Virus record (IMG/VR): IMGVR_UViG_3300030329_005540 | Span: 21,676 to 85,675 of that record | DNA from: a virus | Length of the DNA: 64,000 bases | Direction: 5' to 3' (one strand) | In this document: one piece after another, positions 2 to 61,627 of the stretch | How positions within the stretch are numbered: the first letter of the stretch is position 1 | How the letters are laid out: every line of letters starts with the position of its first letter | The notes under the pieces: model-generated | Told to the model about the DNA's origin: nothing | What the model saw: only the letters and a program-made list of their open reading frames with translations | Databases searched by the model: none | Made by a program: the position numbers and the translations under genes

Positions 2-2851
2 CAGCTAGCTACAACCAGAGACGTGAGAGCGTATGCTGGATATAAACAAAGCGGTACGCATTGGGATTCTAACGACCACAGGCCACCAGATTATACATTC
101 GCCGGGACAGGCAGAGTGTATGGAATATGCACTGGCTTTGATGCAAACGATACTACTAACAAGATAGCCCAGCATCAAGGATACGCCAACGCTTCTAAAT
201 ACATGTTTCTTGATCGCATGCCTGATTATTTAATGAACCATCATTATAGAGCATCTTGGGGTTACGGAAACGCTGACAGTATTTTAGATGCTAATAGATG
301 GAACGCATTTGTTTGGAGCGATTCTTTTTATACAAACAATGATCATTATATAGAAAGAGGATACGGCGCATGGAGAAAGAAGTATGACATCCCACAAACA
401 TGGCAAAGAACTTGGCCCGGATACTTAGGATATGGAGCAAGCTTAGATAAAAATTTTAGTTATATAGATATATTAACGGGATGCAGTGACGCCGCTGGCT
501 TAAGTTGCGTGGATGATAATCATAGCAAAAATCATGCTTGGAAAAATATTTTATTTGGTTGGCAGGTAGGATACAACACTGGAGAGGTTTACGATAAAAG
601 TATCTTGCGAGCAAGACATTTAATGATCAATAAGAGGCAAAGTGAAAGATACAGCTTCGCCACTTATAAAGACGTTATGGCGTTAACTAGCGATAGCGAA
701 GTCGAAAAAAGATTTTCAGAAATTCAAGATCATACTGAGACCTACGATTTTCTTCCTTATCCAGCGCAAAAAAATACTTCTTATGGCGTAGTGAATCCAA
801 CAGGAGGAGGTAGTTTAAAAGTCGATCCGAACTATTTAAATGACCCATTTAATAGAATTACGTCTACCGATTGGGTTTCCGTAGAAGACGTTAAGGCCAA
901 GGCTGAAGAGCTTGGGTTTTTATTCGAGTTTAGAAGATTGGCAGTTCCATTTAAATTACAACAATTTGATTTTACAGTTGGAGCCGCGAAGGGTCTTATA
1001 CGACCAAGTGGAATTGTCAACTATCAAAAAGATGACGGTGATGGTCGCATGCCTCTCAGCGGTCATCCTGACATCGCTACAACTCAAGGCAATGCAGGAC
1101 TAGACAACTCCTACTATTTTTATAGCGGCGTAAAAACCCCTGCTCATGCTGAAAGTACAGTTACAAAAAGAATTACCAAGCTATACCAACAATGGCCAGT
1201 GCCTAATGATTCAGCAAACACTTACAGAAACCCTTGGCCAATAGTTAATGGAGATTCAAAAGACACAGCCTTTGCCACGGCTAAACAGCATATAAACAAT
1301 ATCCGCAATGGTATTTATTGGGATAATTATTCAACATCTAATCCAGTTTATTGGATCGGAGGTTCAAATACATCTCACTTAGGAGGAGGAGGTCTGAGTA
1401 ATGATGACGACGGAACAAACGCTCAATCTATTTGGCCAGATTCAGAAACTTTTTGGTGTAGAGGCGCTGATTGTAATGCGTGTGTAGATTATCGAAATGT
1501 GTTTGGAGGAGATAATTACCAAGGAGGTGGTTGCGCTGACGGCGATAGCGATGACCTCGGAGATTGTTTCGAATGTACCGCAGCAGAAAAATTGGATGGC
1601 ACATGTATTGAATGTCCTAGATTTAGCGGGAAGTTATCTACTGACGACTACAAGCTATTAAAATTAGAAGGAGACGCTAATGATGGAGAATTTAGTTTCA
1701 CAACCACGGGCTATACTCCATTTGTTAGTTCTATGAAAACATTCATCTGGGCAGATAACAAAAGCGAAACAAATTGGGTTAAACCTGTAGGCTTGGGCAC
1801 TCGCCATATTTACAGATATAGAACAGATGATTTTTACGAACTATATAAAACTGATAGGGTGAAAGAACAGTTCGTACACCCAAATTCGAGCAATCCTTAC
1901 CGCGCCGAAACAGTAAGCTCTTGGCTTGGCAACTACATACATTTCCGCGATGAAAAACCGTGGCAAGGCAATAACACGATTAGTTCACCAATGAGCGGAT
2001 CAAGCTATGGAACTTCTTGGGGCAGCGGATTCGGAAGCGTTGTGATGCCGAATGCTCAAGCTATCGTAAATAGAGCCAAGCGTTCTGTATATCCTTGGGG
2101 GGCAAGCGACGGCTACAATGTAGACCATTATAAAATAGTTTGGCATTTGGGCTTATTGAATTATAGTACTCAACCATTGTTGCCCATTACAGTTGACAGC
2201 AATTCAGTTGAATATAAAGCGTGGATGTTGAACATTCAAGAAAGACTTTTCCCCAAGCATTATATTTTCCAAGACGCTTCTCATACAGGATGGGCTGGTA
2301 ACGGATCGCTACAATCAGGTCATGCTTCATTCGCTTATATAGAACCAGATGTTCAATACGGAGATTTTAATGTGTCTACGTTTACAGCCGAAAATGCGCC
2401 TACTTCCACTGGACAGTTCGTTTTCGAAAGCGGAATGATGACAAGCTCTCTTGACCTTTTTGATGGAACGGATGGAAATGAAACTGACGAAAGTTGGTTG
2501 GGGGTCAACAATTACCAAATAAGTGATGCGGATGGAGCCAGCAAATCTCCATTGTTATGGCAAGTTGGTCAAGGGATTTACGCTAGCGAACAGCAGACTT
2601 TTGTCAAAGACAACTCTGTGCCATCTATCTATACCGACTTTATGCCCAAGCAAGAACAGCATGTCAGCGGTGGTTGCTGGGGCAAAATAACAAATCAACA
2701 ATTCCTTGATTACCAAGGAACGCTTCAGGGCTACGACCCGCCGCGTGGAACAAAAATTGCATTACAATTTTATGTAAATAACACGCTTGATCGAACAGCA
2801 GGAGAGTTACGAGAAGCTGGTCCAGACACGCTAACTTGTTGGCAGCACTAG
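2..2851 (+). CDS. Large putative virion/tail structural protein, 5' truncated
   Basis: The reading frame is open from the left window edge to a stop at 2849-2851, so at least 949 residues are present and the N-terminus lies outside the window. I recognise no catalytic domain. The protein is rich in Gly, Asn, Tyr, Trp and Asp, as exposed beta-rich phage structural proteins often are. A cysteine cluster (eight Cys between about nt 1455 and 1620) could form disulfides or bind metal. It is the only plus-strand gene at the left side and converges on the next gene with a 4-bp overlap, which suggests the end of a structural module. Tail fibre, adhesin or capsid decoration are all possible, so the role is inference. 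Confidence 0.55.
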   Translation, partial: QLATTRDVRAYAGYKQSGTHWDSNDHRPPDYTFAGTGRVYGICTGFDANDTTNKIAQHQGYANASKYMFLDRMPDYLMNHHYRASWGYGNADSILDANRWNAFVWSDSFYTNNDHYIERGYGAWRKKYDIPQTWQRTWPGYLGYGASLDKNFSYIDILTGCSDAAGLSCVDDNHSKNHAWKNILFGWQVGYNTGEVYDKSILRARHLMINKRQSERYSFATYKDVMALTSDSEVEKRFSEIQDHTETYDFLPYPAQKNTSYGVVNPTGGGSLKVDPNYLNDPFNRITSTDWVSVEDVKAKAEELGFLFEFRRLAVPFKLQQFDFTVGAAKGLIRPSGIVNYQKDDGDGRMPLSGHPDIATTQGNAGLDNSYYFYSGVKTPAHAESTVTKRITKLYQQWPVPNDSANTYRNPWPIVNGDSKDTAFATAKQHINNIRNGIYWDNYSTSNPVYWIGGSNTSHLGGGGLSNDDDGTNAQSIWPDSETFWCRGADCNACVDYRNVFGGDNYQGGGCADGDSDDLGDCFECTAAEKLDGTCIECPRFSGKLSTDDYKLLKLEGDANDGEFSFTTTGYTPFVSSMKTFIWADNKSETNWVKPVGLGTRHIYRYRTDDFYELYKTDRVKEQFVHPNSSNPYRAETVSSWLGNYIHFRDEKPWQGNNTISSPMSGSSYGTSWGSGFGSVVMPNAQAIVNRAKRSVYPWGASDGYNVDHYKIVWHLGLLNYSTQPLLPITVDSNSVEYKAWMLNIQERLFPKHYIFQDASHTGWAGNGSLQSGHASFAYIEPDVQYGDFNVSTFTAENAPTSTGQFVFESGMMTSSLDLFDGTDGNETDESWLGVNNYQISDADGASKSPLLWQVGQGIYASEQQTFVKDNSVPSIYTDFMPKQEQHVSGGCWGKITNQQFLDYQGTLQGYDPPRGTKIALQFYVNNTLDRTAGELREAGPDTLTCWQH

Positions 2852-18073: not shown

Positions 18074-18481
18074 TGGTGGAGGCGGCGGGAATCGAACCCG
18101 CGTCTTTAGAACCATCGGCCTAAATATGCTACAAGCTTATCCGGTTTAATACGATACGTGTCTGAAACCGGCAACTTCACGTAAAGTTTGGTCTATCTTT
18201 TTTTAAACTACTGGAGACTCAACCAGACTCAACCAGTGTTTTGCTCGTTATCGACGCCCTAGCTCCTTAACGAGCATCCAGAGTAGGACGGGTAGCTACG
18301 CAGCTACAGCAGCCTCTTCAGCCCAACCAAACTGAGCGAGAATCGCATCAGCTTCGTCAAGCGAAGGAGCCATATCAACATTATTGGCAGTTGAATACCT
18401 TGATAGATGATTTAAGAGGCCGACTATCATCCTCTGCTTGCAATTCGGCGTAAGACCCCAAATCGAATCCAGTACGCCCCC
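18074..18481 (-). ncRNA. ssrA: tmRNA (ssrA) with an unusually long tag
   Basis: A 408-nt tmRNA on the minus strand that rescues stalled ribosomes. The 5' GGGGGCG pairs with the 3' CGCCTCC followed by ACCA, and the encoded CCA is at 18074-18076. The 3' T-arm (GCGGGTTCGATTCCCGC) and the 5' GGATTCGATTT region are typical. The tag frame most likely resumes at GCC (18386-18388), four bases after a conserved-position A, and stops with TAG at 18296-18298. It reads ANNVDMAPSL, DEADAILAQF, GWAEEAAVAA, 30 residues instead of about 10, with a normal AVAA-type degron end. A promoter at 18489-18516 would start transcription exactly at 18481. Confidence 0.95.
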
Positions 18482-37543: not shown

Positions 37544-40018
37544 TTATTGGCAACTTTCACATGTTGGGTCTAAGATACTGCAAGCTGTTGAAGCAGAAAG
37601 AGTATCATTAGAATCACTTGAGTTAATATCACCACTGTCACTAGCAGCTTCAGTTTGTGTAGATTTTTCGATTTCACTCGCGCTCTTATTTCTGAGGTAA
37701 TACGTGCTCTTTAGCCCTCTGTCTCTAGCATGCATGTAAAGATCGTTTAAATATTTTAAGGAACTTTTATTATTAAAAAGATTTAAAGATTGCCCCATGT
37801 CGATCCATTTTTGTCGTGCAGCAGCGCAGTCGATAAGTAGGAACTGGTCATGGTCAAACGCGGTTTTATACCTATTTTTAATTTCTGGTGGCAAATCACC
37901 GTTTAACCGCAGGACATCTCCATTGACGGCTTTGATCATGTCTACTAGTCGTTGATCCCAAATACCCATCTCCTTGCACTCTTTGACAAACCATTCGTTT
38001 GTGATCATGAGGTTTCCGGATTTATTTTCATATACGAATAGAACTGAAAAATCTGGCTCCACGCTTGGACTACATCCTTGAATATAAGAAATTGTGGCGG
38101 TGGGAGCAATAGCCATAGTATTGCTATTTCTCATGCCGTGAGACTTGATATGACTCCTCAACTCTTTCCAATCAACTTCTTTGCAATACTTTTTACCTCT
38201 GTGGATAATTGGTTTTTGCCCTAAGTATTCCATCAGATTTTTGTAAGTGTCTATTGGCAGTACGCCCTTATCCCATAGAGAATCCTCGAAGGAAGAGTAA
38301 CTGCCTCTCTCTTTAGAAAGCTTGGAGGAATTAAGCAAACAGTGGTAAGAAATGAACTCGTATAATTCATCTGAAAATTTAACTGTTTCCTCATCGGAAA
38401 AGCCGAGCTTGTAGCTGTGAAACACGTCAGCGAGCCCCATAACTCCTGCACCCACGGGCCGATGAGTTAAGTTGGCTTGGCGAGCTTCTTGAGTTGGATA
38501 AAAATTAAGGTCAATAACATTATCCAGCATTCTCATTTGCGTGGCGATTGTTTTAGCTAGAAGTTTAAAATCGAGCTTTCCATTTACTTTCAAATGTTCT
38601 TTGAGATTAACTGAGCTTAAATTACATACTGCGGTTTCTCCAACCTCAGTTTTTTGACCATGCTCGTATTTCGATGAGCGAGTGTGCAGGAAAATTTCCG
38701 TGCATAGATTAGAGCTATTGATTATCCCTACGTGAGAATTAGAATACCTCAAGTTGGCATTATCTTTAAAAGTCATCCAAGGATGCCCTGTTTCAAATAA
38801 CACTCGAAGCATCTTCTTCCATAGTTCTTTGGCTTTTATGATTTTGAAATTAGTGATTTCTCCCTTATCCGCCATCTTGCAATAAGCGGAATACCTCTTG
38901 TCGAACTCGTCACCCCAATGATTATGGAGATCAACATCGCTTGGGGAAAATAAATACCAATCTTGATCATCTCTCACTTTCCGTAGGAAAAGATCGGGTA
39001 GCCAGTTTGCTGTGTTTATATCGTGACAGCGACGACGTTCATCGCCAGTGTTTTTCTTTAAGTCTAAAAAATCTTCAATGTCAAGATGCCAAGGTTCGAG
39101 GTAAGCGCATCCTGCTCCGGGGCGCTTGCCGCCTTGGTTTACAGCTACTAATAAATCGTTAAAAATTTTCAACCAAGGCACGAGGCCGCTTGAAGTACCA
39201 TTCGTGCCTTTGATATGTGAGCCAGCCGATCTAAAGTTCGTAACATCAAAACCTAAACCTCCTGCATATTTCGACTTGCGAGCCTCTTGCCAAGCTCCTT
39301 CAAAAATTCCATCAATGGAATCCTCAAATGTATTTAAGTAACATGAACTAAGTTGACTCCTAACGCTGCCACTGTTGAACAGCGTTGGCGTGGAGCAGCA
39401 CATTCTGAAAGAGGAAAGAACTTCGTAAAATTCAATCGCTTTTTGTTCTCTGTTCTCTTCATTCAGGGCTAGCCCCATTGCTACGCGCATCCAAAAAGAT
39501 TGAGGAGATTCTAATCTACGCCCATCGCTATGATGAAAGTAACGATCATATAGAATTTGTAATCCAAGATATTTGAATTTAAAATCTCTTTCTAGTTTGA
39601 GCGCTTCGGATAATTTTTTGAGATCGTACTTTAAAAGGTCTTCGTTTAAAATGTTTTTATCTACAAGAAGTTTTACGTTCTTGATAAAAGACAATCTGTA
39701 TTGATGATCGAATGCGTCTTTGTCTACGCTGCTTCCAAAAACCTCTTTGTGAATATTTCCTAAAAGTAATTTCGCCGCGACGTGAGAGTAATTTGGTTCT
39801 TTGTCGATCTTGGTTCGCGCCGACATGATCAGAGCTTTGTCGATTTCCACGGTGGTAATCTTTTCGTAAAGCTGAACGTTGGCATCCAGAACCACTTCAC
39901 TAGCGGAGACATCTTCTAGGTCAGCACATGCTCGCTCAACACATAAATTAATTTTGTTGATATCGAGTTTTTGAAGCCTACCATTCCTTTTCTTAACGTG
40001 TGCGACCTTAGTATTCAT
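37544..40018 (-). CDS. nrdA: Class I ribonucleotide reductase alpha subunit
   Basis: A protein of 824 residues. An N-terminal ATP-cone (VKKRNGRLQKLDINKINLCVERAC) allows allosteric activity control. Catalytic regions: CCSTPTLFNSGSVRSQLSSCYL near residue 207 (redox Cys), NSSNLCTEIFLH near 427 (N-x-C-x-E active-site motif), and SYIQGCSPSVEPDFS near 644. The C-terminal CESCQ is the swinging redox pair that is reduced by thioredoxin or glutaredoxin. It makes dNDPs for phage DNA. Confidence 0.97.
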   Translation of the reverse strand: MNTKVAHVKKRNGRLQKLDINKINLCVERACADLEDVSASEVVLDANVQLYEKITTVEIDKALIMSARTKIDKEPNYSHVAAKLLLGNIHKEVFGSSVDKDAFDHQYRLSFIKNVKLLVDKNILNEDLLKYDLKKLSEALKLERDFKFKYLGLQILYDRYFHHSDGRRLESPQSFWMRVAMGLALNEENREQKAIEFYEVLSSFRMCCSTPTLFNSGSVRSQLSSCYLNTFEDSIDGIFEGAWQEARKSKYAGGLGFDVTNFRSAGSHIKGTNGTSSGLVPWLKIFNDLLVAVNQGGKRPGAGCAYLEPWHLDIEDFLDLKKNTGDERRRCHDINTANWLPDLFLRKVRDDQDWYLFSPSDVDLHNHWGDEFDKRYSAYCKMADKGEITNFKIIKAKELWKKMLRVLFETGHPWMTFKDNANLRYSNSHVGIINSSNLCTEIFLHTRSSKYEHGQKTEVGETAVCNLSSVNLKEHLKVNGKLDFKLLAKTIATQMRMLDNVIDLNFYPTQEARQANLTHRPVGAGVMGLADVFHSYKLGFSDEETVKFSDELYEFISYHCLLNSSKLSKERGSYSSFEDSLWDKGVLPIDTYKNLMEYLGQKPIIHRGKKYCKEVDWKELRSHIKSHGMRNSNTMAIAPTATISYIQGCSPSVEPDFSVLFVYENKSGNLMITNEWFVKECKEMGIWDQRLVDMIKAVNGDVLRLNGDLPPEIKNRYKTAFDHDQFLLIDCAAARQKWIDMGQSLNLFNNKSSLKYLNDLYMHARDRGLKSTYYLRNKSASEIEKSTQTEAASDSGDINSSDSNDTLSASTACSILDPTCESCQ

Positions 40019-42882: not shown

Positions 42883-43482
42883 CTAAATTAATTCAGAAAA
42901 TTGTTTTGATTTAAATTTTGTTTCTAGCATTCTGCGACCCTTTTCGTGTAGGTTGATTGCTGTCTGCGTGCTAACCTTAATTTCTTTTCCTATCTTTTGC
43001 CAAGTCTTTTTTTGCTTAGAGTCAGCAAAATATCGCAGCATAAAAACTTTCTTTATTCTTACGTCTTTCATTTGATCGAGCAGGTTGATAACGTACTCTC
43101 TAAGCTCGTCATTTTTACCGCTCTCGTCTTCTTCGGCTTCGGCCTCTCTATGATAATTAAGCTTGTCGTCTTCCATGCACACATACTTCTTCTCGCCGTT
43201 GATTAAATTAAGGCAGTAGTATCTTGTGAAATTGCCAAGCCAAGTAGAAAATTTAACCTTCTTATCTGGATCAAATTTTAAAATGGATTTATAAATAATG
43301 AAGTCTTTTTCGTTTTTTATATCGTCGTAGGAAATACCATTTGCTGCTAAAGAGGAATGGTATCTTTTGTAGATAGTAAAGCAGAGAGGGGTATGCCTTT
43401 CGATTAGCGCTTTAAGGCTTTCTTCGCAGGATTTTTTCTTTACTTTCTTTATTAAATCTATGTCGTCTTGTTTCCCAACCAC
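42883..43482 (-). CDS. Phage sigma-70-family factor
   Basis: A protein of 199 residues. Region 2-like: LFDYK-type segment is replaced by FIIYKSILKFDPDKKVKFSTWLGNFTRYYCLNLI near residue 62 (region 2.1-2.4 pattern with F-S-T-W-L). Region 4-like: the helix-turn-helix KTWQKIGKEIKVSTQTAINLHEKGRRMLE near residue 158. An acidic linker separates the two. It should redirect host RNA polymerase to a phage promoter class, possibly one of the two motifs described here (inference). Confidence 0.85.
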   Translation of the reverse strand: MVGKQDDIDLIKKVKKKSCEESLKALIERHTPLCFTIYKRYHSSLAANGISYDDIKNEKDFIIYKSILKFDPDKKVKFSTWLGNFTRYYCLNLINGEKKYVCMEDDKLNYHREAEAEEDESGKNDELREYVINLLDQMKDVRIKKVFMLRYFADSKQKKTWQKIGKEIKVSTQTAINLHEKGRRMLETKFKSKQFSELI

Positions 43483-43943
43483 TTATATATGATGTTTTTA
43501 CTATCGAAATATTTTAATTTTTTTTTATTTTGTATAGATAATACATCAAAATCCCTACAATTAAGTAGTTTTTGGGGCATGGACAATATTTTGAGCCCGT
43601 TTTCTATGTCTATTTTTTTAGGGGAGGAATAATGAGAATATTTGAAAGGTAATTTTTCATTTATTTTCTTGGGGTTCCTGAAGCTATCCATTTCTTTTAA
43701 ATCTAATATAAAATTACACAAGTAAAAAGAATCTCCGAGTTTATCATCAACTCTTAAAAATGATGTAATAAAAGAAAATTCCCGATGAATAAGCTCTTCG
43801 GGAAATTTATAGATATTATTACTTTTATACCGGCAAGGATTGGTGTTTGTGGCCATAAACAGGGGCTTAACTTCGAATCCGTTAGCCAGCATGTGCTGTG
43901 GAACCAAATACTTATATGTGAAATCTATCGACTCTTCATCCAT
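43458..43943 (-). CDS. Unknown protein upstream of the sigma factor
   Basis: A protein of 161 residues, aromatic and Lys/Asn-rich, mostly beta-type, with no motif I recognise. It overlaps the sigma-factor gene by 25 nt and the kinase gene by 19 nt, so all three are probably translated together. A sigma-associated function is possible from position only. Confidence 0.6.
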   Translation of the reverse strand: MDEESIDFTYKYLVPQHMLANGFEVKPLFMATNTNPCRYKSNNIYKFPEELIHREFSFITSFLRVDDKLGDSFYLCNFILDLKEMDSFRNPKKINEKLPFKYSHYSSPKKIDIENGLKILSMPQKLLNCRDFDVLSIQNKKKLKYFDSKNIIYKWLGNKTT

Positions 43944-44554
43944 TCTAGGAAGTCTTCTACGTAATTATTTAGATTTTTACGTAACTCTTCCTCGGGGCAA
44001 TCTATCATCGGCCATTCCACTGTATAATCGGCAGCATCTTTTAATCGAGGATCATTCCTAGCCTCTTCACTATTTGCAGGAGGCGTAAAAACCTTATCTA
44101 TTTTAAAATCCCGCTGCTCTTTTTCTAATAAAACGAAGGGTTGGTCATAAAGAGAGACATGAACCAAAGAACCTTTAAGCTCATTTTTTAACCAGTAAAG
44201 TTCATCTTTTTCGAAATCACAATATCTTATGTCAGTAACTACCAAGTAATCGATTTCTGGCCCAACCATATTGAGTAAAGAGATTTTTTTATGAGCTTTT
44301 TCAATCCAGTATCGGCCTTGAGTTTGTTGACGTTTCTGTGTTCCGTGAAAAACTAAGAAAGGTCTAATTATTTCTTTTTCCTCGCGAGTACAAGAAACGG
44401 GATCAATACCGTAGTGTTCGATGCACCATGACCGGACATCATTTTTTAATTCGTCGGCCAAAGAAAGTCGTTTGCACTTAATTTTTTCTTTTAGAATAGA
44501 GAAAAACGTATCTTTTCCACATCCTGCTACTCCAGTTAGTCCGATTATCTTCAT
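43925..44554 (-). CDS. Deoxynucleoside monophosphate kinase
   Basis: A protein of 209 residues. The P-loop GLTGVAGCGKDTFFSIL is at the N-terminus, and RLSLADELKNDVRSW near residue 29 together with FHGTQKRQQTQGRYWIEKA near 88 and YLVVTDIRYCDFEKDEL near 124 fit the T4 gp1-type dNMP kinase. It phosphorylates dNMPs to dNDPs and links to ribonucleotide reductase and dCMP deaminase. Confidence 0.85.
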   Translation of the reverse strand: MKIIGLTGVAGCGKDTFFSILKEKIKCKRLSLADELKNDVRSWCIEHYGIDPVSCTREEKEIIRPFLVFHGTQKRQQTQGRYWIEKAHKKISLLNMVGPEIDYLVVTDIRYCDFEKDELYWLKNELKGSLVHVSLYDQPFVLLEKEQRDFKIDKVFTPPANSEEARNDPRLKDAADYTVEWPMIDCPEEELRKNLNNYVEDFLEWMKSR

Positions 44555-44644
44555 ACTTTAGTTCTACGTATATAATTTTAATTAAATTTCAATAAATTGC
44601 AACTGCGTAATCTGTTTACGTGAAACTTTCCTTTAGGAAATAAG

Positions 44645-44667
44645 ACACAAAACCCCCGTTAGGGGGC
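44645..44667 (-). terminator. Intrinsic terminator of the structured RNA
   Basis: On the minus strand GCCCCC-TAAC-GGGGG is followed by TTTT and a T-rich tail. It closes the transcription unit that starts near 44993. Confidence 0.75.
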
Positions 44668-44993
44668 TTCGTGCTTTACGTTACAAACTTTCCTTTTAGG
44701 GCCAATTTGTTTTATGCTGGAGGCAACCAGCGGACATTACACGACTAACAAATCCGTTAGAACTACCTACCATATAGGGAGAGGAACTGTGCTTAAAACC
44801 TCTGTTACGGTAGTCAACCACAACACGCCGGGGCGATGCGATGAGAGTTACTCATCAGTTTTTTTAAAACTTTCCGTGTAAGAAAGTGCCTGTCTTTCGA
44901 GCAGAGGTGATGGCGCACCTTCCGCGATGGCTGCTCTTAGATAAACCGTTCCGCTGTTAGCTCGGTGGATAAAGGGGTCGAACCTTTTTCTAT
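44650..44993 (-). ncRNA. Unidentified structured RNA, about 345 nt
   Basis: No credible protein is encoded in this 470-nt gap. A class A promoter (45000-45028) points leftward, and a terminator (44645-44667) closes the unit. Between them are several perfect stems: AAAGG/CCTTT with a 7-nt T-loop-like loop (44971-44987), CTGCTC/GAGCAG enclosing AGGTG/CACCT (44899-44936), GATGAG/CTCATC (44840-44856), CTAAC/GTTAG (44745-44765) and GCTGG/CCAGC (44716-44731). GGAAAGTTT occurs three times (44623, 44685, 44867). Spacing of GGAAAGU, a GUAAC hairpin and GUAACAGAGG is faintly like RNase P RNA, but other P RNA landmarks are missing, so the family is left open. Confidence 0.6.
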
Positions 44994-44999
44994 GAGCCA

Positions 45000-45028
45000 A
45001 CAATAAGGGAGGCTTTAGATGTTGTCAA
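45000..45028 (-). promoter_or_regulatory. Class A promoter of the structured RNA
   Basis: TTGACA at 45023-45028, 6 nt, AAAGC at 45012-45016, 6 nt, TATTGT at 45000-45005. No start codon or gene follows, so it is read as an RNA promoter. It overlaps the stop codon of 45025-45483. Confidence 0.7.
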
Positions 45029-45483
45029 TCTTTTTTTTCGTCGGGGCCAAGATTGAACCATGACTCCATATTATCTTTATCTGCCTCTGGCGTCGGTTTT
45101 ACGGATTTGTAGAGCATCACAAGATTTCCGATATCTGTATCTCGAATTGATGTTGGGTCGCACCTGTCCGTATCATCTTTGATGATGTCGCAAAAAGAAT
45201 TGATTTCTTCAGCAATGGCTTGAGCCAGCGGGGCGTGGAGGGTTATCGTTTGCTCAAACGAGGAGTAAGGTCTTTTGAGAATCCAAAATTCTTTATCGCC
45301 ATGCTCCTTTTTCACAATCATCTCATGCTTTTCTAGCTCCTCCAAGGCAGCCTCTAAACAAGCTTTATCGACATCAATATCTTCAGACAAGGGAATAATC
45401 TTCTTAAAGTCTTTTTCCGCTAAAAAAACGTCATTTTCAGCGTACCATCCATATAATTTCTCCGAAACTTCTAAAACTGTCAT
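45025..45483 (-). CDS. Unknown protein, possible winged-helix N-terminus
   Basis: A protein of 152 residues. The first 70 residues look like a small winged helix (KLYGWYAENDVFLAEKDF, then AALEELEKHEMIVKKEHGDKEFWIL), and the rest is helical and acidic. No family is recognised. It is divergent from the regulator-like gene at 45565. A TATTAT-like box lies 7 nt before the ATG. Confidence 0.6.
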   Translation of the reverse strand: MTVLEVSEKLYGWYAENDVFLAEKDFKKIIPLSEDIDVDKACLEAALEELEKHEMIVKKEHGDKEFWILKRPYSSFEQTITLHAPLAQAIAEEINSFCDIIKDDTDRCDPTSIRDTDIGNLVMLYKSVKPTPEADKDNMESWFNLGPDEKKD

Positions 45484-57779: not shown

Positions 57780-58532
57780 ATGAATGATCATCCAGAAGCA
57801 TCACAGAATCAGGAATTTCATGAGTCGAAACAATTTGCAGCGGATAACCAGTTCGTTGTATTAGTTGACATAGATGAAACTGTTTGTTTTTACGGAGAAA
57901 AACGCCGTTACGATTTAGCCGAGCCAAATCATGAAAATATAGCTAAAATAAATAAGCTCTATGACGAAGGCTGGTATGTTATATATTGGACAGCGAGAGG
58001 AGGCTCAGAAAAGTCCAAGGCGGCGGGTAGATGTTATTATGATTTTACATGGAATCAATTAATATCATGGGGCTGTAAATTTCACGATTTGTCCACGGGT
58101 TCTAAAGGAAAATATATAAAGCCCGCTTGCGATCTAGTTATTGACGACAAGTCCAAAAGGATCGAGGAGGTGGGAGAAGCGGGCTGGCAAGATTTGGCTC
58201 CAGAAATCTGTCGTCAGAGAATGGTAGTCGAAGGCACTCTCCACAACGCTTTTGCTCCTGAAGATCAAATTAGATACTGCAAAGAAATCTCTAAAGTATT
58301 AGACATGACTCCGGTTTCAGAGCCTACAACGGATTTCGCTAAAGACTACGGGTGGTGTTGCTTCATGCATTGGAAAGAGTCAGGTATGCATATCTATAGC
58401 TGGGATCATAGAAGCCCCAAGTTTTTTTCAATTGATATTTATACTTGTAAATCATTTAAAGAAGAAGACGTAATTAGATATACGCGAGAATTTTTCAAAG
58501 AGAATTTAATAGAAGTGACTTGGAAGGACTAG
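57780..58532 (+). CDS. HAD phosphatase-like domain fused to SpeD-like AdoMet decarboxylase
   Basis: A protein of 250 residues. Residues 25-130 are HAD-like: VVLVDIDETVCFYG with the D30-x-D32 pair, YWTARGG, and CDLVIDDKSKRI with an acidic motif IV. Residues 150-250 resemble AdoMet decarboxylase: RMVVEGTLHNA, then a segment ending HWKESGMHIYSWD (E200-S201, where the family is cleaved to make the pyruvoyl group), then SIDIYTCKSF. The usual E-S-H sequence reads E-S-G. It probably makes decarboxylated AdoMet for polyamines. I have not seen this fusion described; it lies right after the ALDH gene pair. Confidence 0.7.
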   Translation: MNDHPEASQNQEFHESKQFAADNQFVVLVDIDETVCFYGEKRRYDLAEPNHENIAKINKLYDEGWYVIYWTARGGSEKSKAAGRCYYDFTWNQLISWGCKFHDLSTGSKGKYIKPACDLVIDDKSKRIEEVGEAGWQDLAPEICRQRMVVEGTLHNAFAPEDQIRYCKEISKVLDMTPVSEPTTDFAKDYGWCCFMHWKESGMHIYSWDHRSPKFFSIDIYTCKSFKEEDVIRYTREFFKENLIEVTWKD

Positions 58533-58711: not shown

Positions 58712-59365
58712 ATGAAGTTGCTACAGTTACATAAAATAGACGAAAAATTTATGGAAGACGTAAAAGATTCGTTTAACAGACTGCCTGAAACAGATCATAA
58801 AGACGGCAAATATAGACTGCGTAGATATTCGGTTGTCGAATACAATCCTAACCTCGCGGTATTTAATTGTTTAACTGAAAACGATGTTAAAGTTCTTCCC
58901 CATAGAGATTTTTTACAAAGCGAGGATTTAAATGAACACCAAGGCGGGTTTACTCGATCTTTTGAAGATATAGAGCCTTCAGTTCTACAGAGTATAGGAA
59001 TGAAAGAAATTTTCTGGACGTTTTACAATGAAAATAATTTAAAAGAGTCGCAAGAGATAGAGATTCATCAGATGAGAGTAGTTACTCAAGAGGACGGCAC
59101 GGCGCAAGTGGCTCCCGAAGGAGTTCACCAAGACGGGTTCGATCACATAGCCATGATTGGAGTGAATAGGCATAATATAAGCGGTGGAGAATTGATGGTT
59201 TATAAAAATAAAGACGAGAAACAGTTCGTCTCTTATGCTCTCAAATCTGGAGAGATTATAATGTTAAAAGACAACGTGGTTTGGCATAACGCTAAATCAA
59301 TATCAAATATTAATAAAAACGAAATAGGATGGGGGGATTGGTTCGTTCTGTGCGCCAATGAATAA
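58712..59365 (+). CDS. 2-oxoglutarate/Fe(II) dioxygenase, isoleucine-dioxygenase-like
   Basis: A protein of 217 residues. The iron triad is visible: GVHQDGFDHIAM near residue 135 (H-x-D) and DNVVWHNAKSI near 190 (distal His), with RHNISGGELMVY between them. This order matches the 2OG-Fe_Oxy_2 family (PF10014), whose members hydroxylate free amino acids such as isoleucine. In this operon a free amino acid, perhaps lysine or a derivative, is a plausible substrate. Confidence 0.8.
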   Translation: MKLLQLHKIDEKFMEDVKDSFNRLPETDHKDGKYRLRRYSVVEYNPNLAVFNCLTENDVKVLPHRDFLQSEDLNEHQGGFTRSFEDIEPSVLQSIGMKEIFWTFYNENNLKESQEIEIHQMRVVTQEDGTAQVAPEGVHQDGFDHIAMIGVNRHNISGGELMVYKNKDEKQFVSYALKSGEIIMLKDNVVWHNAKSISNINKNEIGWGDWFVLCANE

Positions 59366-60508: not shown

Positions 60509-61627
60509 ATGCGAATAGAGTCAGAAATTAAACTCGATTACAAAGATGTTTTATTTCGCCCCAAACGATCTACGCTGACTTCTCGAAGCGAAGTAGGCTT
60601 AATGCGTGAGTTTACGTTCCCAAACGTAGAGACAGCTACTTGGAAAGGGGTTCCAATCGCTGCCGCAAACATGGACACGGTTGGGACTTTTGAAATGGCA
60701 AAAGCTCTTGCCCAACATCATATGCTTACTTGCATGAGTAAACATTTTGATTTAAAAAAGTGGCTTCATAAAATGAATGGTTATGGAGTTTATAAGTCTC
60801 CAGAGCAAAGAGAAGGCGGGGTTTGGGAACACAACCCAGATTCAAGATGTTCACACAATAGAATTTATGAACACATGGCTGTATCTTGCGGCATAAAAGA
60901 TGAAGATTTGGATTATTTAGATATGATATTACGCCAGTTTTACTGGCTTAAATTTATTTGTATTGACGCAGCTAACGGCTATACTGCTAAGTTTTGCGAT
61001 TTTGTAAAAAGAGTTAGAGGCCAATACCCCAATCATATTATAATAGCTGGTAATGTTGTTTCGGGAGAAATGACCGAGGAGATTATATTGAGTGGAGCAG
61101 ATATTGTCAAAGTTGGTATTGGTGGCGGGAGCGTCTGCACTACTCGCATACAAACTGGTGTCGGCTACCCCCAACTCTCAGCAGTTATCGAGTGTGCGGA
61201 TGCGGCTCACGGTCTTAACGGTCATATTATGGCTGACGGCGGTTGTGTCTGCGCTGGTGATATTGCCAAAGCTTTTGGCGGCGGGGCTGATTTTGTTATG
61301 CTCGGCGGTATGCTGGCGGGACATACTGAATCTGCTGGACAAGAAGAAGAAGTAGAAGGCGTTAAATATAAGACTTTTTACGGCATGAGTTCTGATACGG
61401 CTATGAAGAAGCACCACGGTGGCGTGGCAAGCTATCGTTCTTCAGAGGGAAAGACGATAAGAGTAAAACATCGTGGACTTGTTAAAAATACCGTAGAAGA
61501 CATTTTAGGAGGAGTGCGCTCTACCTGTACTTATATCGGTGCGAGGCAAATAAAAGACATGCCGAAGTGCGCCACATTCGTCAGAGTTACGCAGCAATCA
61601 AATGAGATTTTTGGCAAAAATGTCTAA
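60509..61627 (+). CDS. guaC: GMP reductase
   Basis: A protein of 372 residues of the IMPDH/GMPR barrel family. [16 protein letters not shown] at the N-terminus, [16 protein letters not shown] near residue 50, [14 protein letters not shown] near 150, [21 protein letters not shown] near 198 (catalytic Cys in G-S-V-C-T) and [14 protein letters not shown] near 255 are typical of GMP reductases. No CBS domain insert is seen, which separates it from most IMPDHs. It converts GMP to IMP and may divert the host nucleotide pool. Confidence 0.95.

Follow-up and report, generated by a model that had tools for sequence, protein, structure and literature searches.

Large structured RNAs are uncommon, and several of those already known have proved to be central machines. 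GOLLD and ROOL are RNAs of phages and prophages whose function is unknown (PMC12286853). The RNA considered here, termed type A, lies in a window of 64 kb, i.e., the whole stretch of DNA that was analyzed, which is part of an 85.7-kb IMG/VR phage contig that is itself incomplete. The window encodes a DNA polymerase, a DnaB-like helicase, a ribonucleotide reductase, a dCMP deaminase, a dNMP-kinase-like protein, and a tmRNA. The carrier is an uncultivated virus of bacteria, and the RNA is assigned to marine phages. Host-like metabolic genes, with S-adenosylmethionine decarboxylase, 2OG-Fe dioxygenase, and IMP dehydrogenase/GMP reductase domains, are also present in the window. For the T4-type capsid family, no match was obtained anywhere, controls included, so that this result is uninformative. 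The RNA is read from the minus strand of a gap between a 152-aa ORF (ORF152) and the dNMP kinase gene (Table 1).

Table 1. Positions of the type A RNA, its elements, and other features in the 64-kb window.
Feature	Position	Strand	Remarks
ORF152	45483..45025	-	152 aa; flanks the gap
Sigma-70-like promoter	45000..45028	-	TTGACA-N17-TATTGT; overlaps 3' end of ORF152; transcription predicted to start near 44993
Type A structured RNA	44645..44993	-	about 345–350 nt; from folding, homologues, and covariation
5' T-arm-like hairpin	44971..44987	-	AAAGG-UUCGACC-CCUUU; T-loop pattern in homologues
Helix F	44947..44968	-	4 pairs, two-sided changes in all; 92.8% paired (38 sequences)
Pseudoknot strand a	44858..44861	-	AAAC; pairs with a'; just before hairpin A
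Hairpin A	44840..44856	-	6 bp, 5-nt loop; 6/6 pairs covary; 99.6% paired
Candidate CC/GG stem and conserved loop	44818..44831	-	short; near-invariant sequence
Helix B enclosing GUAA and helix D	44761..44815	-	B, 7 bp; D loop holds UUUUAAGCAC and the pseudoknot 3' strand
Pseudoknot strand a'	44784..44787	-	GUUC; in loop of helix D
Helix E hairpin	44745..44760	-	5 pairs, double changes in all; 89% paired
3' domain	44678..44744	-	strand x, hairpin G with loop pairing (CCC:GGG), R1; hairpin G and loop pairing from covariation scan
R1, first direct-repeat copy	44703..44678	-	in 3' domain, near RNA 3' end
Terminator hairpin	44645..44674	-	13 bp; GCACGAAGCCCCCTAACGGGGGTTTTGTGT; recurs at 3' end of homologues
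R2, second direct-repeat copy	44610..44638	-	just past terminator; moves with the RNA on relocation
GGAAAGTTT copies	44623-44631, 44685-44693, 44867-44875	-
dNMP kinase gene	44554..43925	-	flanks the gap
Sigma-factor-like ORF	42883-43482	-	near the RNA
tmRNA	18074-18481	-	ARAGORN and Rfam; long predicted tag ANNVDMAPSLDEADAILAQFGWAEEAAVAA
S-adenosylmethionine decarboxylase domain	57780-58532	+
2OG-Fe dioxygenase domain	58712-59365	+
IMP dehydrogenase/GMP reductase domain	60509-61627	+

A preliminary description of this stretch, made from the sequence alone, had proposed that a promoter, a series of stems, and a terminator define an RNA of about 345 nt in a gene-free gap, and this observation was confirmed. 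Taken alone, the promoter and terminator of the window are weak indicators, as 1.8 kb of shuffled sequence yields 3.6 ± 1.7 promoter-like and 1.3 ± 1.2 terminator-like sites; they become credible because both recur in homologues. Indeed, 30 of the 41 homologues carry TTGA[CT]-15..19-TANNN[TC] in front of the RNA, and 98% of the pairs in the G+C part of the terminator hairpin are kept. In single-sequence folding, the minus strand folds better than its shuffled versions (z −3.96, 0 of 100), and the plus strand folds no better than its own (z −1.12). Small ORFs are found inside the RNA interval, but the homologues show indels in that stretch while the base pairs persist; thus, the interval is not a gene for a protein.

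Related loci, 80 in number, were collected via the phage NrdA gene, and nhmmer with the window RNA as the sole query found matches in 21 of them (E 4e-28 to 5e-6). A scan of IMG/VR with a degenerate pattern of the core matched 27 stretches, and a profile search led to 41 distinct type A RNAs, including that of the window, 38 of which form the alignment used for covariation analysis. The dNMP kinase gene, used as bait by means of short exact peptides, recovered no relatives. In 84,980 prokaryote genomes, the core pattern had five exact matches, none of which was supported by the profile; one prokaryote candidate with a weak covariance-model score (L111, E 0.018) was rejected, as it lies inside a protein gene. 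No relatives of type A were found among the cultured-phage records searched. As far as seen, the distribution of type A is that of one lineage of uncultivated phages.

Related phages were compared for co-varying stems, as the preliminary description had suggested, and the outcome strongly argues for a structured noncoding RNA. The named structure comprises 36 pairs, including one pseudoknot, and 96.6% of these are standard pairs across the 38 sequences. Compensatory, two-sided changes occur in 27 of the 36 pairs, giving 299 double-change cells, where shuffled alignments have 92.3 ± 8.7 (0 of 500). Slid structures were 40–52% paired, a comparison that favors the named structure because it was derived from the same 38-sequence alignment; the shuffles, which were 77.2% paired, and the two-sided changes are independent of that advantage. 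For the core alone, with the pseudoknot included, 98.6% of the pairs are standard and the double-change cells number 217 (67.0 ± 7.6 when shuffled). A G-test covariation scan and RNAalifold concur on the core helices of the 38 RNAs.

Within the core, helix B is 98.9% paired, with double changes in six of its seven pairs, and helix D is 96.7% paired, with double changes in two of four. The pseudoknot is 97.4% paired over the 38 sequences and shows A-U to G-C and C-G to A-U double changes; in one of its pairs, G-C replaces A-U in 12 of the 38 sequences. In the window itself, three of the four pseudoknot pairs are standard. A second strand (GUG), nearly invariant in type A, is a candidate partner of the CAC in the D loop, by analogy with type B. 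The invariant parts of the RNA are GUAA, the loop UUUUNAAGCAC, and CCC..GG. The T-arm-like hairpin noticed earlier near the 5' end is real as well; its T-loop pattern (7-nt loop, pyrimidine at position 1, A at position 5) recurs in 25 of the 41 homologues, among which the sequence of the stem differs. In the 3' domain, a long-range helix between strand x and R1 co-evolves, scoring 18.2 within the same genome and 14.6 across genomes (0 of 500 permutations).

A search against the Rfam covariance models, which had been recommended with RNase P in mind, named no family for this RNA. At the gathering score, cmscan of the window and seven homologous loci against Rfam 15 returned tRNA and tmRNA only, and at E≤10 the window region and L083, a central homologue, gave chance-level matches or none. 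A literature search, incomplete in coverage, found no description of a type A RNA. Compensatory changes in 38 homologues together with the absence of any Rfam match strongly support one of the two options of the preliminary description, namely that type A is a new RNA class, orphan structured phage RNAs as a genre being already known.

Type A is encoded by a freestanding gene. Most genomes have it between ORF152 upstream and the dNMP kinase gene downstream; however, in six loci (L006, L067, L071, L095, L100, and L107) the RNA precedes ORF116 instead and ORF152 is located elsewhere. The gene upstream of the RNA, named by eye, reads as dUTPase in L006, L067, L071, and L107, the four of these six that were read. 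In several other loci, opposite-strand genes lie directly behind the RNA. No fixed link to one downstream gene was found: the dNMP kinase gene, ORF116, or opposite-strand genes come next. Where genes are inserted behind the RNA (L010, L011, L066, L098, and others), most of those that were read resemble glycosyltransferase genes, several lie on the opposite strand, and this variable gene island begins right after R2, as if at a recombination hot spot.

Relatives without a type A match often have a gap of 400–530 nt between ORF152 and the dNMP kinase gene, and in sister phages this gap contains a different structured RNA, type B (e.g., L034:5215-5650), with homologues in L003, L007, L009, L015, L017, L025, and other loci. 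Type B is 99.7% paired, with double changes in 22 of 34 pairs and 73 double-change cells against 15.9; as for type A, its compensatory changes exceed those of shuffled and slid controls. It matched no Rfam family, and the cultured-phage records searched gave short chance matches only. The two types occupy the same slot, flanked by ORF152 and the dNMP kinase gene, and share the R1/R2 duplication, and in both of them an upstream strand pairs into a hairpin loop within a longer stem, although type B has two such strands (GCUU:AAGC and CCCG:CGGG) and type A has one that is well supported. Type B is longer, has its own conserved sequences, and shows no detectable sequence similarity to type A; common descent of the two is possible.

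The two types alternate in one slot. Seven A/B changes are needed to explain the type labels on the NrdA tree, three of them forced by well-supported branches, and the closest NrdA relative of the window carries type B. Among ten long contigs, eight have type A only, one has type B only, and one has neither; none has both. In the contig with neither (G003, 142 kb, locus L046), just 125 nt separate ORF152 from the dNMP kinase gene. The lack of both types there implies that the RNA can be dispensed with, unless a third type has gone unseen or the contig is incomplete. A 668-nt gap of G003, at 38023-38690, is an example of a place where a third type may sit. The tree of the sigma-factor-like ORF near the RNA requires two RNA-type changes, in comparison to 3–6 for other genes on the same rows; it is thus the gene whose tree best tracks RNA type, which is only suggestive of a partner role.

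The direct repeat consists of a motif, roughly CCTAAAGGAAA, and a phage-specific part, and it occurs twice in both RNA types; in type B, one copy lies inside the RNA and the other near its 3' end. R1 and R2 are fast-evolving: the copies are alike within a genome and diverge between genomes, with type A alignment scores of 11.65 within genomes, 7.69 between genomes, and 7.15 when shuffled. Alternate pairing of x with R1 and R2 was considered and rejected, because x:R1 co-evolves and x:R2 does not (own 14.43, cross 14.41). The R1/R2 duplication accounts for two of the three GGAAAGTTT copies reported earlier. All three exist, with no further exact copy in the 64 kb, but one lies past the terminator and hence outside the RNA interval. 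The motif was also evaluated as a genome-wide promoter or binding motif and discarded, as there is no excess in the window and no extra repeat copies above chance in the loci.

The gene is likely to specify a structured trans-acting RNA of an undescribed class that serves as a scaffold in an RNP or in an RNA-only assembly. Host RNA polymerase would transcribe it from the sigma-70-type promoter, probably early in infection, a timing suggested by the host-type promoter, and transcription would end at the terminator. The RNA would then fold into a T-loop hairpin, a pseudoknotted core presenting the invariant loop (UUUU-AAGCAC), and a 3' domain, which the fast-evolving helix would close, and it would act as a scaffold that is either protein-bound or self-assembling, as are GOLLD and ROOL. 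Expression, early timing, and trans action, as well as the partner, target, and biochemical role, are predictions, whereas the homologues, the structure, the freestanding gene, and the alternation with type B are observed. G003, with neither type, counts against such a scaffold, and the R1/R2 duplication is left unaccounted for by it. It is conceivable, if rather doubtful, that A and B are interchangeable RNAs for the same job, one per genome, swapped several times between close relatives, with the fast-evolving, matched x, R1, and R2 setting specificity. If so, they would constitute an RNA-based allelic specificity system in phages that serves to control replication, to exclude co-infecting relatives, or to evade a host factor.

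RNA II of ColE1 is the model for the best rival explanation, which is nonetheless unlikely, i.e., that the RNA, synthesized at an origin, acts as a primer or licensing factor for downstream DNA synthesis, R1 recurring as R2 and A/B being compatibility types. The RNA is indeed near a gene-direction switch in the contigs examined and at the cumulative GC skew minimum in the contig of the window and in G008, although gene direction is a confounder of GC skew and G005 and G006 are without a clear extreme at the RNA. R2, directly behind the RNA and moving along with it, fits an origin, as do the type switching and the fast change of R1/R2 and x, which resemble incompatibility groups; yet the A+T-rich stretch after R2 is absent where another gene follows at once, and the 142-kb contig carries neither type. 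An improbable explanation is a ribozyme in which the pseudoknotted core would catalyze RNA cleavage or ligation at R1 and R2: the pseudoknot, the invariant unpaired bases, and the two motif copies as possible substrate sites would suit it, but the R1-pairing strand shows no co-evolution with R2 and no known ribozyme family matches. The terminator hairpin at the RNA end and the same-strand dNMP kinase gene downstream in most genomes recall a riboswitch or attenuator, i.e., a leader that acts in cis on the next gene, a role that is quite improbable because the downstream gene and strand differ among loci, with ORF116 next in six and an opposite-strand gene in others.

Even less can be said for an RNA of an RNA-guided nuclease (TnpB, IscB, or Cas12-like), which is very improbable. 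The succession of a pseudoknotted scaffold, an "anti-repeat" (x), and a repeat (R1) is reminiscent of tracrRNA, and a TnpB-like protein is encoded in two relatives; however, R1 and R2 are separated by a conserved hairpin and not by a variable spacer, and the TnpB-type domain, the sole nuclease family sought, is absent from the incomplete contig of the window and from seven of nine relatives and is distant where present. The TnpB/Cas12f-like zinc-ribbon proteins are located at G006:C1:109378-109581 (524 aa frame) and G007:C1:81163-81363 (505 aa frame). The other option of the preliminary description, a very divergent RNase P RNA, has virtually no standing: GGAAAG and GUAACAGAGG resemble pieces of its conserved regions, but no RNase P model matched at the gathering score (window and seven loci) or, among 4227 Rfam families, at E≤10 (window and L083), and the core helices pair differently.

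Type A defines a pseudoknotted class with dozens of natural variants, absent from Rfam and from the phage records and prokaryote genomes scanned. Since an unlike-looking second RNA replaces it in one slot, its function is testable by swapping, and the alignments can seed a new RNA family.

Comparison with described RNAs places type A as follows. Its likeness to RNase P RNA is confined to the short look-alike words GGAAAG and GUAACAGAGG, whereas its invariant parts and their pairing partners are not RNase P conserved regions. GUAAC and GUAACAGAGG, once singled out for their RNase P-like spacing, do fall within helices B and D of the conserved core, yet they are not an RNase P signature; GGAAAGTTT is outside the invariant core and varies between phages. 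A helix P4 (CR I and V, with CR IV) was likewise rejected, since GGAAAG is not invariant, differing between phages, and the core pairs otherwise. Type A resembles tmRNA (RF00023) in being phage-encoded, in its similar length, and in its pseudoknots and T-arm-like hairpin, but it has no tRNA fold, tag frame, or tmRNA match, ARAGORN and Rfam detecting nothing of the kind at its position, and the same phages have a separate true tmRNA, which scored above the cut-off in 8 of 10 lineage contigs, that of the window among them. No covariance-model match to GOLLD or ROOL was obtained for the window, the homologous loci, or L083, and type A, at ~345 nt against >800 nt for many GOLLD members, is not within a tRNA island. 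Nevertheless, GOLLD and ROOL are the nearest in kind to type A, being, like it, phage-encoded and freestanding RNAs of unknown function with an elaborate, covarying, pseudoknotted structure (PMC12286853).
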